Below, piece by piece: positions 22,229 to 34,822 of a DNA stretch of 60,237 nucleotides. Positions within the stretch are counted from its first letter, which is position 1. Every line of letters begins with the position of its first letter. The stretch covers positions 14,316 through 74,552 of the forward strand of contig JAAXJX010000001.1 of assembly GCA_012269595.1 (NCBI GenBank), in the 5' to 3' direction. The notes under the pieces are model-generated. The model was not told the origin of the DNA. It saw nothing but the letters and a program-made list of their open reading frames with translations, and did no database searches. Source of the DNA: Planctomycetia bacterium. Its GTDB lineage: Bacteria; Planctomycetota; UBA8108; UBA1146. The position numbers and the translations under genes are program-made.

Positions 22229-22486
22229 TTTTCGGCCCTTGAGTCGGCAGTTATTCCATCCCTGATTCCTCTCGAAGGCGTCTTTCTCTTCTCCTTCAAT
22301 TATAGCCCTGAAATACCTCCTGAAGGCGGTTTAAGGGGATTCCCACATTCTGTCCCTGGTCTCACTTGGCCCGATGTACAGCCCCGATGCTACTCTTCAG
22401 CGTGAATCCATCCGTCCACCGAATTGGCTGTGCGGATGGCCATTCATCTTTGGGGAGAGCCCCCGGAAATCGAAGGAGATATGGCG
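22229..22486 (+). other. Leader region of the pilus operon
   Basis: No gene and no clear promoter or sigma-54 TGGCAY-N5-TTGC box was found by eye. It must carry the signals that start the pilT operon. Confidence 0.35.
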
Positions 22487-23551
22487 ATGACCATCGAGGA
22501 TCTGGTGCAGCAATTAGTTGAAAGGGAGGGCTCTGACCTCCACCTGGGCGCAGGCACCGCTCCCATGATTCGAATTCACGGACGTCTCGTTGCAGCGGGG
22601 GATTCAGTCCTCGATGCAGAGGATGTCCGAAAAATCGTGTACTCGATTTTGGACAATGATCAGATCCGATCCTTTGAACGGGATCAGGAATTGGACATGG
22701 CATTTGGTATCAGCGGGCTGGGGCGATTCCGAACCAACGTTTTTTACCAACGGGGATCTGTCGGCGCGATCTTGCGTGTCATCCCTACTCAGGTTCCTGA
22801 TTTGAGTGACCTTGGACTCCCTGTGGATGTCTGTGAAGGTCTCGCTATGAAAAAGAAGGGCCTGGTGCTCGTCACTGGTGCGACGGGAAGCGGTAAGTCC
22901 ACTTCATTGGCATCCATGGTCGATTTCATCAACAGGGGCCGAAATGATCACATCGTCACCATCGAAGATCCCATCGAGTTTGTTCACCGAAATCAGAACT
23001 GTCGTGTCACGCAGAGGGAAGTGGGAACAGATACTCCTTCCTTTGCCAGTGCCTTGCGTCGGGTTCTTCGACAAGACCCGGATGTGATCATGGTGGGTGA
23101 GCTTCGAGATCTGGAAAGTATCGGTTCAGCACTGACTTGTGCAGAAACCGGTCACCTGACCTTTGGAACCCTGCATACCAATGACGCAGTGCAAACCCTG
23201 AATCGTCTGATAGACGTCTTCCCGTCCCATCAGCAACAGCAGGTTCGTACCCAGTTGTCCTTCGTCCTCGAAGGCATCGTTTGTCAGCAGCTGGTTACCC
23301 GCTCCGACGGTCGTGGGCGGGTTCTTGCTAGCGAGATCCTTCTTGCAACCCCTGCGGTTCGCGCGCTGATCCGTGACGACAAGGCTCACCAGATTCCCTC
23401 TGCGATCCAGACCGGAGGAAAACTGGGAATGCGAACCATGAATCAATCCCTGTATGAACTGTATCGAACGCGTCAGATCACCTACGAAGAGGCGATCTCA
23501 CGTTCGACGGATACCGAAGAACTCAAAAGAATCTTCCAGAGGCAGAGCTGA
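22487..23551 (+). CDS. pilT: Type IV pilus retraction ATPase
   Basis: PilT hexamers power pilus retraction. The 354-residue product has Walker A GATGSGKST near residues 131-139, the Asp-box region with EDPIEFVH, Walker B LRQDPDVIMVGELRD, and the His-box GHLTFGTLHTND. The C-terminus lacks the PilB zinc cysteines, and the size and the E-x-x-T-N-D order fit PilT. ATG 22487 is chosen because AAGGAG lies eight bases upstream; ATG 22481 sits too close to it. It heads a tight operon, two bases before pilB. Confidence 0.94.
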   Translation: MTIEDLVQQLVEREGSDLHLGAGTAPMIRIHGRLVAAGDSVLDAEDVRKIVYSILDNDQIRSFERDQELDMAFGISGLGRFRTNVFYQRGSVGAILRVIPTQVPDLSDLGLPVDVCEGLAMKKKGLVLVTGATGSGKSTSLASMVDFINRGRNDHIVTIEDPIEFVHRNQNCRVTQREVGTDTPSFASALRRVLRQDPDVIMVGELRDLESIGSALTCAETGHLTFGTLHTNDAVQTLNRLIDVFPSHQQQQVRTQLSFVLEGIVCQQLVTRSDGRGRVLASEILLATPAVRALIRDDKAHQIPSAIQTGGKLGMRTMNQSLYELYRTRQITYEEAISRSTDTEELKRIFQRQS

Positions 23552-23553
23552 AC

Positions 23554-25272
23554 ATGTCCCAAGCCATCGTTCGTTTCAATCGCAGATTGGGGAAAATCCT
23601 CTCTCGCCATCGTTTGGTAGAGGATCAGGACATCGATGAAGCCATCCAGAAATCGGGTGACGATGGATCGGTGATGCGCATCCTTATCGAAGACGGAAAA
23701 GTGGCCGAGGAGGAGTTCCTTGGAATTTTGGCCATGGAAACGGGTGTGGCACCCATCGATTTGAACCGATTGTCGCTGGATGAAAATCCTTGTGAAGATT
23801 TCAAGGAGAGGATTGCCCGTTCCTGCCGAGTGCTTCCGGTTTCCAAGGCTTCCGGAGTGTTGACGGTTGCGGTATCTGATCCCCAGGACATTTTGTTGCT
23901 GGATGAGTTGCGCAATCTTACTCGTTGTCAGGTGCAACCGGTTCTGGCCTGTGATTTCCGTATCGAAGAAGCCATCGATCGCCTTTATGGCGATGGTAGC
24001 AAGGAGATAGAGGAAGTCCTCGAGGATTACGGGAACCTTGACCTCGAACTTCGTGAGGGGCACGACGATTCCGATGAGGGAGTCCAGGAGCTTTCCTTTG
24101 AGGGAGATGAGTCTCCAGTTGTCAAAATCGTCAATCACATCATTTATCAGGCATTGCGAGAGCGTGCCTCGGATATCCATGTCGAGCCCCAGGAGCGGTC
24201 GATTCGTGTCCGTTACCGCTGTGATGGAGTGTTGGGAGAGGCCCAGCAGCCTCCGGCTCAATTGCGCGCTTCGATCGTCAGTCGTCTGAAGATCATGGCT
24301 GGACTCGATATCGCCGAGCGGAGAATCCCTCAAGACGGCAAGTTCCAGTTGCGTGTTGAGGGGCGTCAGGTCGACTTCAGGGTTTCAACCTTGCCGACGG
24401 TTCATGGCGAAAAAGTCGTGTTGAGAATCCTCGATTCCTCAAATCTTGCCCTCAATCTTGAAACTCTGGGCTTCGAAGACAAAGCCCTCAGCGACATCCG
24501 AAACGCGATTTCCAGTTCTTACGGAATGATGTTGGTCACAGGTCCGACTGGATCGGGAAAATCGACTTCCCTGTATTCATGCGTCAATGAAGTTCTTTCC
24601 CCTACTGAGAACATCACCACTGTCGAGGATCCTGTGGAGTATCAGTTGGATGGAGTGGTTCAGGTTCCGGTCAATGCCAAACGAGGATTGACCTTTTCCA
24701 AGGCGCTTCGTTCGATTCTCCGTCAGGACCCGGACACGGTCATGATCGGAGAGATCCGGGACCTTGAAACCGCAGAAATTGCTGTCAAAGCCGCGTTGAC
24801 CGGACACAGGGTCTTTTCAACCCTGCATACCAATGATGCCCCTTCGACGGTCACAAGGATGGTCGATATGGGGATTGATCCCTTCCTCGTTGCTTCAGCA
24901 ACTCAATGCATCGCTGCACAGAGGCTGTGCAGAAGACTTTGTGAAGATTGCAAACAGGATGCCGGTGAGCTTCCCGCAGAACGTCTTGTTGCACTCGGTT
25001 TCACACCGGAAGAAGCGGCGCAGGCCCGTTTGTATGAGCCCGGCGGCTGCTCCCGTTGTCAGGGAGGCTATCGGGGTCGATTTGCACTCCTCGAAACGAT
25101 GCCCATGGATGAAGAAGTTCGCCGTGTTGTCGTCGGGGGAGGATCAGCTCTGGAGATCAGAGATACCGCTTTGGCCAATGGGATGCTGACTCTGAGAAGA
25201 GTCGGAATCCTCAACGTATTGCGTGGAAAAACCTCTCTTGAGGAGGTTCTGCGCGTCACCCAGGGCGATTGA
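23554..25272 (+). CDS. pilB: Type IV pilus assembly ATPase (PilB/GspE family)
   Basis: The 572-residue protein has an N-terminal MshEN-like domain (GKILSRHRLVEDQDIDEAI and following). The ASDIHVEP segment, Walker A GPTGSGKSTSLYS near residue 330, and QDPDTVMIGEIRD near 392 follow. A zinc site with two cysteine pairs is present: CRRLCEDC near 460 and CSRC near 499. This is the extension ATPase that polymerises pilins, or the GspE of a type II secretion system. The neighbours pilT and pilC favour the pilus. It is two bases after pilT and overlaps the pilC frame by a few bases only if the earlier TTG is used. Confidence 0.92.
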   Translation: MSQAIVRFNRRLGKILSRHRLVEDQDIDEAIQKSGDDGSVMRILIEDGKVAEEEFLGILAMETGVAPIDLNRLSLDENPCEDFKERIARSCRVLPVSKASGVLTVAVSDPQDILLLDELRNLTRCQVQPVLACDFRIEEAIDRLYGDGSKEIEEVLEDYGNLDLELREGHDDSDEGVQELSFEGDESPVVKIVNHIIYQALRERASDIHVEPQERSIRVRYRCDGVLGEAQQPPAQLRASIVSRLKIMAGLDIAERRIPQDGKFQLRVEGRQVDFRVSTLPTVHGEKVVLRILDSSNLALNLETLGFEDKALSDIRNAISSSYGMMLVTGPTGSGKSTSLYSCVNEVLSPTENITTVEDPVEYQLDGVVQVPVNAKRGLTFSKALRSILRQDPDTVMIGEIRDLETAEIAVKAALTGHRVFSTLHTNDAPSTVTRMVDMGIDPFLVASATQCIAAQRLCRRLCEDCKQDAGELPAERLVALGFTPEEAAQARLYEPGGCSRCQGGYRGRFALLETMPMDEEVRRVVVGGGSALEIRDTALANGMLTLRRVGILNVLRGKTSLEEVLRVTQGD

Positions 25273-25286
25273 GAGCAGGAGATAAC

Positions 25287-26537
25287 ATGAAAAATTATGA
25301 CTACAAATCAAGAAATCCCCAGGGCAAGGCGGTCACGGGTGTGATCGAGGCAGAAACCGAATCGGAAGCGATTCAGGAGCTGCGTCGCCGTGGATTGACC
25401 GTTACCTCCATCAGGGGCCAGAAGAGTGGTGGCAGTGGGAAAAGATTTTCCCTGTCGTTGCCGGCTTTCTCCAATTCCAAGGGGGCACTCGGTAAAAGAG
25501 TTCCGCGCAAGGAACTGGTACCGATGGCTCGTCAGCTGGCCACGATGTTCGAGTCAGGGATTCCACTCGTAGAGTCGCTGGAAGTGATTGAAGAGCAGTG
25601 TGACAACGAAAACCTGAAACTGGTTCTGGCGGACATCGCTTCAGAAGTACGTCAGGGTAAAGATTTTTCCAACGCCCTCTCCCGGCACCCGAAAGTATTC
25701 GACGATATTTTCATCAATATGGTTCGTGCCGGTGAGGCGAGTGGTCAGCTTGACGACGTTCTCGATCGTCTGGCAACCCATATGGAGGAGTCAGAAGAAC
25801 TCAAGGGAGAGATCAAATCGGCGATGACTTACCCAGTGGTGAGTCTCGTGATGATCGGTGTCATCAGTCTTGGATTGCTGGTATTCGTTCTTCCCCAGTT
25901 CAGGGACATCTTTGAAGGACTTAATCAGGAAATGCCTGCGCTGACTGCAGCAGTCATGGGTTTGAGTGAGTTGGCACAAAACAATTTCGGCCTGATCCTG
26001 TTGTCATTGGCAGCATCTGTCGCAGGAATGAAATTGCTTTTGGGTACCCAGCGGGGAAGACGCATTTGGGACATGGTAATTTTGAGAATCCCTGTCTTTG
26101 GTCCCCTGATCCGCAAGACCATCGTCAGCCGTTTCAGCGGTACTTTTTCAACTCTCATCAAGAGTGGAGTGCCGATTCTGGGTGCTCTGGAAATCGTTGG
26201 GCAGACGACCGGTAACACCCTCTACGCAGAAGCGATTGAATCTTCTGCGGATTCGGTTCGACAAGGTGAAAGCCTGGGACAGCCGTTGGCGAGAACTCGC
26301 CGATTCCCGCCGATGGTTTGCCGGATGATTACTATCGGTGAACGATCTGGTTCCCTGGAACAACTGTTGGAAAAAGTCTCCCAATTCTATGACGCCGAAG
26401 TCCGCAGCACTGTCAAGCAGCTGACTTCTCTCATCGAACCATTCCTCATCGTCATTATGGGTGCAGTGGTCGGCACGATGGTGCTGGCCATGTTCCTTCC
26501 GCTTCTGGCGATGCTTGGAAACATGGGATCACACTAG
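25287..26537 (+). CDS. pilC: Type IV pilus inner-membrane platform protein
   Basis: The 416-residue GspF/PilC protein has the start YDYKSRNPQGKAVTGVIEAE, then two copies of the GspF domain (RQLATMFESGIPLVESLEVI and SGTFSTLIKSGVPILGALEI). Membrane segments lie near residues 185 and at the C-terminus (FLIVIMGAVVGTMVLAMFLP). ATG 25287 has AGGAG six bases upstream; a TTG at 25269 is in frame but overlaps pilB. It forms the platform under the PilB/PilT motors. Confidence 0.93.
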   Translation: MKNYDYKSRNPQGKAVTGVIEAETESEAIQELRRRGLTVTSIRGQKSGGSGKRFSLSLPAFSNSKGALGKRVPRKELVPMARQLATMFESGIPLVESLEVIEEQCDNENLKLVLADIASEVRQGKDFSNALSRHPKVFDDIFINMVRAGEASGQLDDVLDRLATHMEESEELKGEIKSAMTYPVVSLVMIGVISLGLLVFVLPQFRDIFEGLNQEMPALTAAVMGLSELAQNNFGLILLSLAASVAGMKLLLGTQRGRRIWDMVILRIPVFGPLIRKTIVSRFSGTFSTLIKSGVPILGALEIVGQTTGNTLYAEAIESSADSVRQGESLGQPLARTRRFPPMVCRMITIGERSGSLEQLLEKVSQFYDAEVRSTVKQLTSLIEPFLIVIMGAVVGTMVLAMFLPLLAMLGNMGSH

Positions 26538-26554
26538 GGGGCAGGGCGGGAGTC

Positions 26555-28072
26555 ATGAGACAGGTCACCATGACAAAACTGTTATTGAGCCTGAGCATGC
26601 CATGGGTGGCATTTTGCCTCATGGGTGTGCTCGGCCTTGAGACCGTTTCCAAAACGGCCATGGTGGCTTTGTGGATTTGGGTCAGTGCTTCGTTGGGATC
26701 CCTGGCAATCCCGTCCTCGATCAATGGCCGTGGAATCACGGACCTTGCGGGGGCTCTGGTATTGACTTCCTTGTCCGGTTGGACGAGTTCCCCTTTCGTT
26801 CCTGTTCTTTTGCTCGTCATCGCCCTTTCCGGTGCTCTCCATGGTGGTGGTCGTGCCAAATGGCAAGCGAGCATTGCGATACTGGTATTGGTCGCCGGAT
26901 CCCAGCTGACCGCAGAAGTTTCTTCACAGGCTTTCCCATGGTTTCAGCCATTGGCGTTGGCCTTGGCCCTCTATGGGCTGGCGTGGCTGGGTGGCTGTCT
27001 CAAGGGCAGCTGGCTCGACCTGGAAGAGCAGCATGAACAGATCCTCAAGGCGCTGGAGGAAGGGATCATCGTCTGTGACGCCACTGGGCGTGTGGTGCAG
27101 GCGAATCCCGCCGCAAGACAGTTTTTGAGGTTTCCTGAAAGCCGCCAGTGGACCGGGTTTCCCCTTGAACAGATTCTTCGCAGGGAAACAGATGCTGAAT
27201 TCCGCGAGGCTCTCACCAATCCCTCAATGCATGTTGAAGATGTGCGGTGGTCCGACCGTGAAGGTGTTGAGAGAAGTTTCCGCGTTAAAACTACTGCGCT
27301 TGATTCGGGCCTGATTCTTTCGGTCTTTACGGATCGAACTGCAGAACGCCGTGTCATTGAAGCAGAAGCTCGACTCGTTCATCTCGAAGAGTTGGATGAA
27401 CTTTCTCTCGGATTGGCTCACGAAATCCGCAATCCTCTCGCTTCCCTGAGAGGGGCCGCCGAAGAACTTTCTGGTGGTCGTTTGAATACAAAACAAACTG
27501 AGTTGATGTCGCGCATCGTCAATCGGGAGTCCGACCGTCTCGATCGAACGGTCAACCGCTTCCTGGAGTACTCCTCGAGAAGAAATCGTGACCAATTCGA
27601 AATTTGCGATGCGTCCACAGGAGTGTTTGAGGTGCTGGAGATGATCCAGCAACGATCCGATTGCGATGAGATGTGTATTCAGGATTCCATCGAATCACCG
27701 ATTCACATCGGAATCGAGCGGGATGCCTGGAACAGCATCGTCAGCAATCTGGTGATCAATGCTGTGGAAGCATGTCAGGGACAGGGCCGACTGGAATTGT
27801 CTCTCACAGCCATAGACGGAATGGCCCATTTCTTCATTACCGATGACGGTCCTGGTATCTCAGAAGATTTGCAAAACAAAGTATTTCATCCTTTTGTCAC
27901 GACCAAATCCCGTGAAGGGGGCCTTGGACTCGCAATTGTGCGCAAGGCGATCGAAGAGTCAGGCGGAAGAATCGAACTGGATTCTCAAGAGAATGAAGGC
28001 ACGACGATTCGGGTTTCTGTTCCTCTGGTGCAGACCCGTGATTTCGTGAAAGCGAAGGCAGGTTCAGCATGA
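26555..28072 (+). CDS. pilS: PilS-like sensor histidine kinase
   Basis: The 505-residue membrane kinase has several hydrophobic segments in the first 150 residues. A PAS-like domain follows (EEGIIVCDATGRVVQANPA), then the phospho-acceptor helix LAHEIRNPLASLRGA with His near 289. The ATP-binding domain has NLVINAVEAC (N box), DDGPGI (G1) and GGLGLAIV (G2). It lies 17 bases after pilC and overlaps the response-regulator gene by four bases (ATGA). The arrangement matches PilS-PilR, where the kinase monitors pilin in the membrane, although no pilin gene is in this window. Confidence 0.88.
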   Translation: MRQVTMTKLLLSLSMPWVAFCLMGVLGLETVSKTAMVALWIWVSASLGSLAIPSSINGRGITDLAGALVLTSLSGWTSSPFVPVLLLVIALSGALHGGGRAKWQASIAILVLVAGSQLTAEVSSQAFPWFQPLALALALYGLAWLGGCLKGSWLDLEEQHEQILKALEEGIIVCDATGRVVQANPAARQFLRFPESRQWTGFPLEQILRRETDAEFREALTNPSMHVEDVRWSDREGVERSFRVKTTALDSGLILSVFTDRTAERRVIEAEARLVHLEELDELSLGLAHEIRNPLASLRGAAEELSGGRLNTKQTELMSRIVNRESDRLDRTVNRFLEYSSRRNRDQFEICDASTGVFEVLEMIQQRSDCDEMCIQDSIESPIHIGIERDAWNSIVSNLVINAVEACQGQGRLELSLTAIDGMAHFFITDDGPGISEDLQNKVFHPFVTTKSREGGLGLAIVRKAIEESGGRIELDSQENEGTTIRVSVPLVQTRDFVKAKAGSA

Positions 28073-29514
28073 GTCAAAAGGCATACGACATCCTTCTCGT
28101 TGACGATGAACAGAGTATGCGCGAATTCCTCGAGATCGTTCTCGTAAACGAGGGATACTCTGTCTGTTGTGCGGAGTCCGGTGAGGAAGCGCTGGAAATT
28201 CTGTCTGATCAGGGAGCCCGTGTTTTTCTTCAGGATCTGCGCATGGGTGGACTCGATGGCATGGAGCTTCTCCAGCAGGCACGCAAGATTGCCCCGGAAA
28301 CTCCTGTATTGGTCATGACGGCTTACTCCACTTCGGATGTCGCCATGGAAGCGATGCGTCAGGGGGGCTTTGATTTCCTGCGCAAGCCGTTCCAGAACGA
28401 TGAGGTCAAGGGAGCCGTCAGCCGTGCTTTGGCTTCGACCACAAGAGATGAAAACCGAACTCACAACCTTCGTCAGAGAATGGTGGGTAACACCCCTGTG
28501 ATGCGAGACCTCTTCGAAATGGTTGAGAGCGTTGCTCCCACAGACTCCACCGTTCTTGTAACTGGAGAGAGTGGCTGCGGAAAAGAGCTGATCGCTCGAG
28601 CGATTCATGATGGATCTGTGCGAAACCAGCAACAATTTATTGCGGTGAACTGCAGTGCATTCACTGAAGGTCTTCTTGAGAGTGAGCTCTTTGGTCATGT
28701 CAAAGGTGCCTTCACCGGTGCTGTCGAGGAGCGCAAAGGCGTCTTCCTCAGTGCCAACGGAGGGACACTGTTCCTCGATGAAGTTGCAGATATGAGCCTT
28801 TCCACGCAAGTACGAATCCTCAGGGCACTGGAAGATCGCAGGGTTATTCCTGTAGGTGGCGATCGGGAGGTCGAAACCGATGTCCGTATCATCGCTGCTA
28901 CAAACAAGGATCTCGCAGAAGAAGTCCGCGAAGGGCGTTTTCGTGAGGACCTTTTTTACCGATTGAATGTTATCCCAATGCATCTCCCGCCTCTGAGAGA
29001 ACGGAAGCAGGATCTGCCATTGCTGGCAGGTCATTTCATCCGTCGTCATGCCGAAGCGATGGGCAAGGCGGTCAGTGGGATGACAGAATCCGCTTACGAG
29101 GTACTCAATCAACACGATTGGCCTGGAAATGTTCGTGAGCTGGAGAATGTGATCCAGCGTCAGGTCGCCCTTTGTCAGGGGGACTTGATCGATCAATTTT
29201 CCATTTCTTCTTCGAGATCTTCAAGCAGCGGTGTCGTTTCCGTTACTCCTGACGCTCCAGCGGCGAGTGAATCTTCCCGGCAGGAAACTCGGGAAACTGG
29301 GCATGAGTTCGAAAAGAAACAGACCTTTGATGAGTCTTTGGGGCTCGAAGAGCAGATGGCGCTTTTTGAAAGCCGTCTGATTCAGCAGGCCCTTGGCAGG
29401 TGTCAGGGGAACCAGACACGAGCTGCGCAAATGCTCGGGATTTCCTACCGTCAATTCCGCTATAAAGTTGCCAAGCTTGATTTACAGGTGAAATCGGTGG
29501 AGTTCGCTGAATGA
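28069..29514 (+). CDS. pilR: PilR-like sigma-54-dependent response regulator
   Basis: The 481-residue NtrC-family regulator has a receiver domain (ILLVDDEQSMREF, with the likely phospho-acceptor Asp in FLQDLRM and Lys in LRKPF). The AAA+ domain has Walker A GESGCGKE, the sigma-54 contact loop GAFTGA near residue 214, and FLDEV. The C-terminal Fis-type helix-turn-helix has QGNQTRAAQMLGISYRQFRYK. It should activate sigma-54 promoters in response to PilS. It overlaps pilS and the following gene by four bases each. Confidence 0.92.
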   Translation: MSQKAYDILLVDDEQSMREFLEIVLVNEGYSVCCAESGEEALEILSDQGARVFLQDLRMGGLDGMELLQQARKIAPETPVLVMTAYSTSDVAMEAMRQGGFDFLRKPFQNDEVKGAVSRALASTTRDENRTHNLRQRMVGNTPVMRDLFEMVESVAPTDSTVLVTGESGCGKELIARAIHDGSVRNQQQFIAVNCSAFTEGLLESELFGHVKGAFTGAVEERKGVFLSANGGTLFLDEVADMSLSTQVRILRALEDRRVIPVGGDREVETDVRIIAATNKDLAEEVREGRFREDLFYRLNVIPMHLPPLRERKQDLPLLAGHFIRRHAEAMGKAVSGMTESAYEVLNQHDWPGNVRELENVIQRQVALCQGDLIDQFSISSSRSSSSGVVSVTPDAPAASESSRQETRETGHEFEKKQTFDESLGLEEQMALFESRLIQQALGRCQGNQTRAAQMLGISYRQFRYKVAKLDLQVKSVEFAE

Positions 29515-33206: not shown

Positions 33207-33815
33207 TCAGTCCATGAGTTCTGACTGCCAATAGGCGTCACTGACAAACTTCTCCCATGAAGACCAGATCGGACGCAGGGGCAACCTGTGGATCTGGGAC
33301 CAGCGTGGACGAACCGGTTTGACCTTGAGTTTCATCGAAGCCTCTTCGGGAGTTCGATTGGCTTTGCGTTTATTGCATTTGACACATGCGAGGACGCAGT
33401 TTTCCCAACTCAATTCGCCTCCTCGACTGCGCGGCATGACATGGTCTATGGTCAGCTCTCGGGTCCCTGGCTGAATTCCACAATACTGACATGTGTTCTT
33501 GTCACGACGATAGAGATTGAGCCTTGAGAAAGAAACCCGGCGGTCACCGACCCCGGAGTATCCGGAGAGAACAACGATTTCCAGAGGTGCGAGACACAGT
33601 GATTCTGATCGAATCGCTTGTTTCCTGTTTTTGGTCTTCAACTCTGAAAGATCATGCCATGATTGAAGATCATGGGCTTCGTAGGTCTCGGGGTCGATAA
33701 TACGTGCGGCCCCTCGGGCGACGAGACCGATGGCCAGTCTGGCAGGCAAGGTATGGGTCGGGACCCAGGATCGATTCAAAACCAGAGTTGGTGTCTCGAG
33801 CAGATTCGACATCAT
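33207..33815 (-). CDS. HNH endonuclease family protein
   Basis: The 202-residue product has a treble-clef HNH nuclease fold. CQYCG and CVKCNKRK are the two zinc pairs. TIDHVMPRSRGGELSWENCV holds the HNH core with His, Asp and Asn. The N-terminal half (TLVLNRSWVPTHTLPARLAI) is the conserved companion region of a widespread chromosomal HNH family found in many phyla. It is not a homing enzyme by context: there is no intron, intein or repeat. Two adjacent ATGs follow GGGAGGA, and the second (33812) has better spacing. It is convergent with the HD gene and followed upstream by a long non-coding region. Confidence 0.88.
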   Translation of the reverse strand: MMSNLLETPTLVLNRSWVPTHTLPARLAIGLVARGAARIIDPETYEAHDLQSWHDLSELKTKNRKQAIRSESLCLAPLEIVVLSGYSGVGDRRVSFSRLNLYRRDKNTCQYCGIQPGTRELTIDHVMPRSRGGELSWENCVLACVKCNKRKANRTPEEASMKLKVKPVRPRWSQIHRLPLRPIWSSWEKFVSDAYWQSELMD

Positions 33816-34007: not shown

Positions 34008-34084
34008 AAAAAAATAAGACCCCGGCTCTCCTCATCGAGGGGAAGCCATCCCTGTCCTCCCGCCATTTGCGGAGGAGCCGGGGT
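34008..34084 (-). terminator. Strong minus-strand terminator or structured RNA 3' end
   Basis: On the minus strand ACCCCGGCTC (34084-34075) pairs perfectly with GAGCCGGGGT (34028-34019). Inside are further paired segments (CTC/GAG and a GGGA..TTCCC loop). It is followed by CTTATTTTTTT down to 34008. No annotated minus-strand gene lies close upstream, so it implies an independent minus-strand transcript. Confidence 0.7.
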
Positions 34085-34164
34085 GATCGCGCATATTAGG
34101 TCGCGCGCTGGATAACAAGAACTCGAATATGTCGTCCGGTGTTCCAGCGTCCCAAGTGGGGGAC

Positions 34165-34344
34165 TTAGTACACCTCATCGTTAAATAAACGCATGGGCAC
34201 TTTTTGTAATGCAATGATCATGCCAACCGGAGAAACGTTCATTTCAAAGGACTTACGTTCTTGAAGTAAAAAAGTGTGGCCAAATCTGGCCTTTTGCAGC
34301 GGCCAAAGTGGCCGAAAACAGCCTCCAAGTTGCTGTAAAAGCAT
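34165..34344 (-). CDS. Possible small ORF within an intergenic minus-strand transcript
   Basis: On the minus strand an ATG at 34344 opens 59 codons, ending at TAA 34167-34165. The inner ATG at 34242 would give 25 residues, MNVSPVGMIIALQKVP and onward to NDEVY. No ribosome site is visible for either, and the first ATG lies only a few bases after the expected transcription start of the promoter at 34384-34355. It could be a leaderless small protein, a leader peptide, or chance coding within a structured RNA. No family is recognised. Confidence 0.3.
   Translation of the reverse strand: MLLQQLGGCFRPLWPLQKARFGHTFLLQERKSFEMNVSPVGMIIALQKVPMRLFNDEVY
34277..34314. promoter_or_regulatory. Twin TGGCC palindromes
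   Basis: Two near-identical palindromes, GGCCA-AATC-TGGCC (34278-34291) and CGGCCA-AAG-TGGCCG (34300-34314), lie eight bases apart. Four TGGCC/GGCCA half-sites in 38 bases could be a repressor site for the flanking transcripts or paired RNA hairpins. Confidence 0.4.
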
Positions 34345-34354
34345 GATTGGGTTT

Positions 34355-34384
34355 GTTTTATGACCAAACTGACTTACCTGTCAA
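34355..34384 (-). promoter_or_regulatory. Consensus sigma-70-type promoter on the minus strand
   Basis: A perfect TTGACA (34384-34379) is followed after 18 bases by TAAAAC (34360-34355), or after 17 bases by ATAAAA. It points away from phhB and toward the structured region ending at 34008. Confidence 0.55.
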
Positions 34385-34462
34385 ATGTCATCGTTTTCAA
34401 GGGTGGAATCCGTCGACATCATCCGCCAAGGTGATTTTTGTCCCAGGGAAGGAAACACGAAA

Positions 34463-34822
34463 ATGACGGAAGAAAACAATGCTCCCCTCCTCGAAAGAAG
34501 TTGTAAAGCCTGCAGGGGAGACATGCCTGCACTGGTGGGTGCGGAACTCGAAAAGTGGGCTGCTCAAACCCCAGCGTGGGAGGTGATCGACAGTCATCAT
34601 TTGCAACAGCAGTGGAAGTTTGCCAACTTTCTTGAAGCACTCTCATTTGTAAACAGGATCTCACAGGTTGCAGAGGATCAGGGGCACCACCCGGACATCT
34701 CTTTCAGTTGGGGTTGGGTCAAGGTGTGTATCTGGACCCACAAAATTGATGCACTGACCGAATCAGATTTCATTCTTGCGGCCCATATCGATCATTGTGC
34801 ACTCTCAGGAGAGAACTCATGA
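34463..34822 (+). CDS. phhB: Pterin-4a-carbinolamine dehydratase
   Basis: The 119-residue enzyme dehydrates 4a-hydroxytetrahydropterin for recycling of tetrahydrobiopterin-type cofactors. It has LERSCKACRG at the start, WKFANFLEALSFVNRIS, and the active-site HHPDISFSWGWVKVCIWTH. ATG 34463 has AAGGA upstream; an ATG at 34385 adds 26 unrelated residues. No aromatic amino-acid hydroxylase gene is in the window, so a partner enzyme is not evident, and some such proteins instead support molybdopterin chemistry. It overlaps the next gene by four bases. Confidence 0.9.
   Translation: MTEENNAPLLERSCKACRGDMPALVGAELEKWAAQTPAWEVIDSHHLQQQWKFANFLEALSFVNRISQVAEDQGHHPDISFSWGWVKVCIWTHKIDALTESDFILAAHIDHCALSGENS

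Follow-up and report, generated by a model that had tools for sequence, protein, structure and literature searches.

Sequence comparison indicates that a minus-strand locus of a Planctomycetia bacterium is a genuine gene for a small regulatory RNA, one not catalogued before, which occurs in marine Planctomycetota and represents a new RNA family. The window, i.e. the whole stretch of DNA analysed, comprises 60,237 nt of the forward strand (GCA_012269595.1, contig JAAXJX010000001.1, positions 14,316–74,552). The gene quite probably produces a trans-acting small RNA (sRNA) of ~190 nt, whose transcription would be driven by sigma-54 and an NtrC-type activator at GGCC dyads, ended by an intrinsic terminator, and coordinated with that of another RNA, designated sRNA-2, in a two-member regulon. 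The features present in the sequences are the structure and conservation of the RNA, the lack of a conserved open reading frame (ORF), a sigma-54 element, the dyads and the second locus. An earlier note had described an orphan transcription unit here; the unit is real and its RNA gene is borne out, but its ORF had been misassigned, as probably had its start and promoter type.

Structure and Conservation of the RNA

The 351-nt stretch folds more stably than shuffled sequences (z −3.6), as does its 198-nt 3′ part (z −3.2). It is conserved in all seven genus genomes examined (73–97% identity), which form about three clades, so that the counts are not independent; the genomes compared are mostly metagenome-assembled. 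The carriers are marine Planctomycetota genomes (e.g. Planctomycetia bacterium TMED53). The comparison was extended to the family by following the downstream HNH endonuclease gene (33207–33815, minus strand, Pfam HNH) to other genera and inspecting the sequence upstream of it. The RNA precedes the same HNH gene in 16 of 16 family genomes examined, 14 of which belong to genera g1–g4 and two (G010, G012) to g5.

The conserved core is the terminator hairpin (34019–34084, minus strand). In the family alignment 96.8% of its pairs are kept, 12 of 21 pairs have undergone compensatory change, and 51 cells are double-changed; these figures were reached neither by 500 shuffles nor by a sliding partner, the two controls used. 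Such stem covariation in relatives is what a structured non-coding RNA would be expected to display. The apical loop (34046–34055, minus strand) reads ACAGGGAUGG identically in 14 of the 16 genomes and takes the GU variant GUAGGGAUGG in both g5 genomes, giving the consensus RYAGGGAUGG over the family. Ahead of the terminator stands another hairpin, CGCGCG-loop-TGCGCG (34088–34107, minus strand), whose place is taken in g2–g4 by a hairpin of different sequence at about the same position. The hairpins and the GC-rich terminator with its T7 tail (34014–34008, minus strand) are present as the earlier note had reported.

A covariance model of the terminal domain recovers 16 of 16 family genomes (E ~1e-14 to 1e-21). 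Neither the 13 other class genomes nor 392 sampled from the phylum, the latter searched under stricter filters, yielded a credible member, and the RNA was not found upstream of HNH orthologues at 23 other loci outside the family. This restriction to one family counts against the reading of a regulatory sRNA gene given above. Weak matches of the model outside the family proved to be plain terminators or a repeat. Matches of 18 bases in other genomes were attributed to chance, since they fall within a glutamine synthetase gene and one other coding gene, and exact 20-mer matches in Verrucomicrobia and Chloroflexi contigs are without surrounding similarity. The Rfam search gave no match, RNase P, tmRNA, SRP and 6S RNA models included, and ARAGORN detected no tmRNA anywhere in the window; as far as Rfam goes, RNase P, tmRNA and SRP are excluded, in line with the earlier note, which had not seen their signatures. 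The proposal of a new small RNA agrees with the family-wide conservation, the covariation and the stable fold.

The Invariant Loop

The CsrA/RsmE consensus is ACA-N-GGA-N-G in a hairpin loop. Since ACAGGGAUGG fits it as (A/U)CANGGANG and is invariant on covarying stems, the RNA could be regarded as a sponge of the CsrB/RsmZ type titrating CsrA. This is highly improbable, because csrA (PF02599) is absent from the genus: it is missing in 14 of 14 g1–g4 genomes, whereas the controls E. coli, B. subtilis and Thermotoga all give a hit in the same search. Unlike CsrB/RsmZ, the RNA also offers one invariant site only. For CsrA itself the sponge is refuted in this genus. Within the family csrA occurs in the two g5 genomes (G010, G012), that is, only in the genus with loop GUAGGGAUGG and without the sigma-54 element. 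The invariant CAGGGAUGG loop is almost identical to the hairpin recognised by CsrA/RsmE; that another RNA-binding protein binds it in Planctomycetota genera devoid of csrA, the sRNA pair then acting as a Csr-like titration switch, is to be considered very unlikely as well.

The Open Reading Frame

An ATG at 34344 opens 59 codons to 34165 on the minus strand, as had been described. In a relative of 97% identity (L002) this frame stops after codon 6; in L004–L007 it is missing or unrelated, and other species lack the start. By this comparison the ORF is not a gene and the RNA encodes no small protein, because the frame is broken in so close a relative and missing or unrelated in L004–L007. No kept reading frame, as expected of a small protein or a leader peptide, was found in the relatives, and both the leaderless small protein and the leader-peptide system once suggested fail on this point. 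The comparison with related genomes proposed earlier thus came out in two ways: stems are conserved with covariation, and the ORF is not.

Probable Sigma-54 Promoter and Predicted Transcript

The promoter is likely the sigma-54 element TTGGCATGATCATTGCA (34226–34210, minus strand), TTGGCAT-GATCA-TTGCA, with GG at −24 and GC at −12. It lies inside the presumed 340-nt transcript and had been missed. No other site in the window matches TTGGCAYN5TTGCW, even when one mismatch is tolerated; a single match is not significant in itself, because at that tolerance chance alone should yield about one. Its significance comes from conservation in all 14 g1–g4 genomes, where exact pattern and alignment give it positions between −170 and −201 relative to the loop. 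Genus g2 retains it though most of its upstream sequence has changed. In both g5 genomes the hairpin is kept, but the sigma-54 element is missing from where it would be expected. A −24/−12 element (GG-N10-GC) at a fixed place and the presence of rpoN, in two copies in the genome, are the features expected of a sigma-54-dependent sRNA gene.

From these features we infer that the element and the upstream dyads are used and that the RNA starts near 34199, 12 bases past the GC at −12. The predicted small RNA (34008–34199, minus strand), delimited by the element and the terminator, conserved in the genus and covered by the more stable 3′ fold, would be ~190 nt long rather than 340 nt, because the sigma-54 element would set the start near 34199. 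The earlier figure of about 340 bases probably misplaced the start, the element and enhancer-like dyads lying downstream of TTGACA. A long-range helix and a pseudoknot of the 340-nt version were dropped, as a sigma-54 start puts their 5′ side outside the RNA.

Upstream Dyads

Two conserved enhancer-like dyads lie upstream of the promoter on the minus strand: dyad 1, GGCTGTTTTCGGCCA (34309–34323), and dyad 2, GGCCAGATTTGGCCA (34277–34291), the latter recurring in the same form upstream of sRNA-2. They follow the patterns GGCT-N6-GGCCA and then GGCC-N6-GGCCA and are about 31 bp apart. Dyad 2 is situated 51 bases upstream of the sigma-54 promoter in both L001 and L048. Two GGCC dyads with conserved spacing, common to sRNA-2, are what upstream activator sites would look like, and they are putatively assigned as such.

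A Probable Second Small RNA

Among the 25 loose sigma-54 matches of the whole genome, dyads of this kind occur within 300 bp at just two, the present locus and G000:C4:28256-28272, with two dyads each. Both lie outside long ORFs and run to a T-tailed hairpin. The second locus, sRNA-2 (L139, G000:C4:28103-28472, minus strand), carries a sigma-54 element, an invariant CTCTTCCTCGCTGT and the same GGCC dyads. Its conservation extends to 12 of the 16 family genomes. Their alignment displays the dyads and a terminator hairpin, together with an invariant ACTCTTCCTCGCTGT and a sigma-54 element that is degenerate in some of the g4 genomes. ACTCTTCCTCGCTGT is pyrimidine-rich and complementary to the Shine-Dalgarno-like GAGGAAGAG, and so it would have the usual look of a base-pairing seed. 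Rfam gave no match for sRNA-2 either. Direct pairing of the two sRNAs was rejected, since the energies are no better than those of shuffles. The two RNAs, with different neighbours, are apparently under common control, as far as their promoter regions suggest.

The TTGACA Block

Upstream of the dyads and the sigma-54 promoter stands a conserved block, TGACAGGTnnGACAGTnTAGTCATAA (34356–34390, minus strand), with GAC repeats at 9-bp spacing; it contains the TTGACA/TAAAAC signals of the earlier note. The motifs exist, with TTGACA at 34384–34379 and CATAAA at 34362–34357 on the minus strand (spacer 16, or 17 for ATAAAA), but the TTGACA/CATAAA pair is not scored as a sigma-70 promoter, the scanner finding 0 where 1.4 are expected by chance. 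Transcription from TTGACA by sigma-70, giving ~340 nt of RNA that codes for a small protein or acts as a long sRNA, would be in keeping with the conservation of the TGACAG and CATAA blocks in g1, g3 and g4. It is quite unlikely in view of the unconserved ORF and the unscored promoter. Besides, spaced palindromes occur in the 150 bases preceding the sigma-54 element and recur before sRNA-2 at another distance, which fits DNA sites better than RNA. The block could be regulatory DNA or a secondary sigma-70-type promoter giving a longer form; a sigma-70 start at this place may exist alongside the sigma-54 start. These GAC repeats, which read TGACAAGTATGACAGGTATGAC in L006, lie at the distal end of the regulatory region and are conserved between genera.

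Neighbouring Genes

An HNH protein is encoded in every family genome, syntenic where checked, and its nuclease domain is nearest to the Cas9d/IscB HNH profiles. The RNA might be a cis-acting leader or attenuator of the HNH gene, with a conditional terminator and nuclease expression upon read-through, since it adjoins this gene in all 16 genomes, even in g2 and g5 with their different gene on the other side. This possibility is unlikely. The adjacency is expected, because the whole block is syntenic (PilR-like, TPR, HD, HNH, PCD or M24). Moreover, a gap of ~120–200 bases with its own conserved CTGGATC-like motif, recognised by eye, separates the terminator from the gene, no conserved anti-terminator pairing was recognised, and the co-regulated sRNA-2 has a different neighbour.

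The position upstream of an HNH gene whose best profile relatives include Cas9d and IscB recalls OMEGA systems, where the wRNA lies upstream of iscB, and the RNA would then serve the HNH protein as its guide or scaffold. Such a role is extremely improbable: the profile matches span the HNH domain only and fall far below the model cut-offs, RuvC is lacking, the RNA terminates before the gene, and HNH orthologues across the phylum occur without the RNA. Membership in the wRNA family of IscB (HEARO) was rejected, as Rfam gave no HEARO match and only an HNH domain is matched downstream, where a RuvC/PLMP protein would be expected.

On the other side of the locus lies a divergent pterin-4a-carbinolamine dehydratase gene (34463–34822, plus strand), which the neighbourhood comparison identified as the neighbour in g1, g3 and g4. 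Further away, PilT-, PilB-, PilC-, PilS- and PilR-like genes stand in a row (22424–29514, plus strand; the pil names are a reading of the translations), and they probably encode a type IV pilus or type II secretion motor with a sigma-54 two-component pair. The PilS/PilR-like pair (26555–29514) lies ~5 kb from the RNA in the conserved block, and its response regulator is a sigma-54 activator according to Pfam and NCBIfam. By proximity only, this pair is a candidate activator of the sRNA gene.

Proposed Mechanism and Known Systems

For the sigma-54-dependent sRNA proposed here, the following course could be assumed. An NtrC-type activator would bind the two GGCC dyads at 34323–34277, whereupon sigma-54 RNA polymerase would transcribe from the element at 34226–34210. 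Transcription would end at the intrinsic terminator (34084–34008), giving the ~190-nt trans-acting sRNA, and sRNA-2 would be under the same activator via the same dyads and promoter type. Most likely, this RNA would act through its invariant loop ACAGGGAUGG by target pairing or protein binding, and sRNA-2 through its invariant unstructured CUCUUCCUCGCUGU, pairing with Shine-Dalgarno regions.

Several known sRNAs have a comparable promoter. CrcZ and CrcY of Pseudomonas (CbrB) are sigma-54-driven, and the qrr genes are sigma-54-dependent. Unlike CrcZ/CrcY, which belong to a different phylum, the RNA displays no CA-rich Hfq-binding repeats. In Vibrio, several Qrr sRNA genes are controlled by one NtrC-type response regulator, LuxO, and the RNAs have a conserved core (PMC4211561), as the present RNA does; however, there is no sequence match, and one invariant loop stands here against the 32-nt Qrr core. 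In E. coli glmY has QseF, a UAS TGTN12ACA and a sigma-54 promoter (PMC6075780). Common to GlmY/GlmZ of Enterobacteria and the present pair would be a sigma-54 sRNA gene, upstream activator sites, two sRNAs sharing control and possibly an extra sigma-70-type promoter, which glmY has (PMC6075780), whereas the dyad here is of the GGCC type and not TGTN12ACA, and the two RNAs are not homologous to each other and have no Rfam match. The best reading is that the RNA would be one of two co-regulated sigma-54 sRNAs with an architecture like that of GlmY/GlmZ or Qrr.

No description of sigma-54-driven sRNAs in Planctomycetota was found in the literature searched. If the reading is true, two new RNA families would be added, together with an enhancer motif that they share and a compact regulon of two sRNAs, in a marine group about whose RNA-based regulation very little is known. 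Promoter, activator sites and seed are predicted specifically enough to be tested.

Sigma-54-like elements also occur elsewhere. At G000:C10:124759 and G000:C44:65078 (L143, L147) they stand upstream of genes for an ECF-type sigma factor and a small cysteine-rich protein, and similar elements are found before similar genes in G005 and G009 (L138, L144). At G008:C31:17322-17338 (L142) a sigma-54-like element is followed by a strong terminator within ~110 bases, which could possibly represent a third sRNA in g3.
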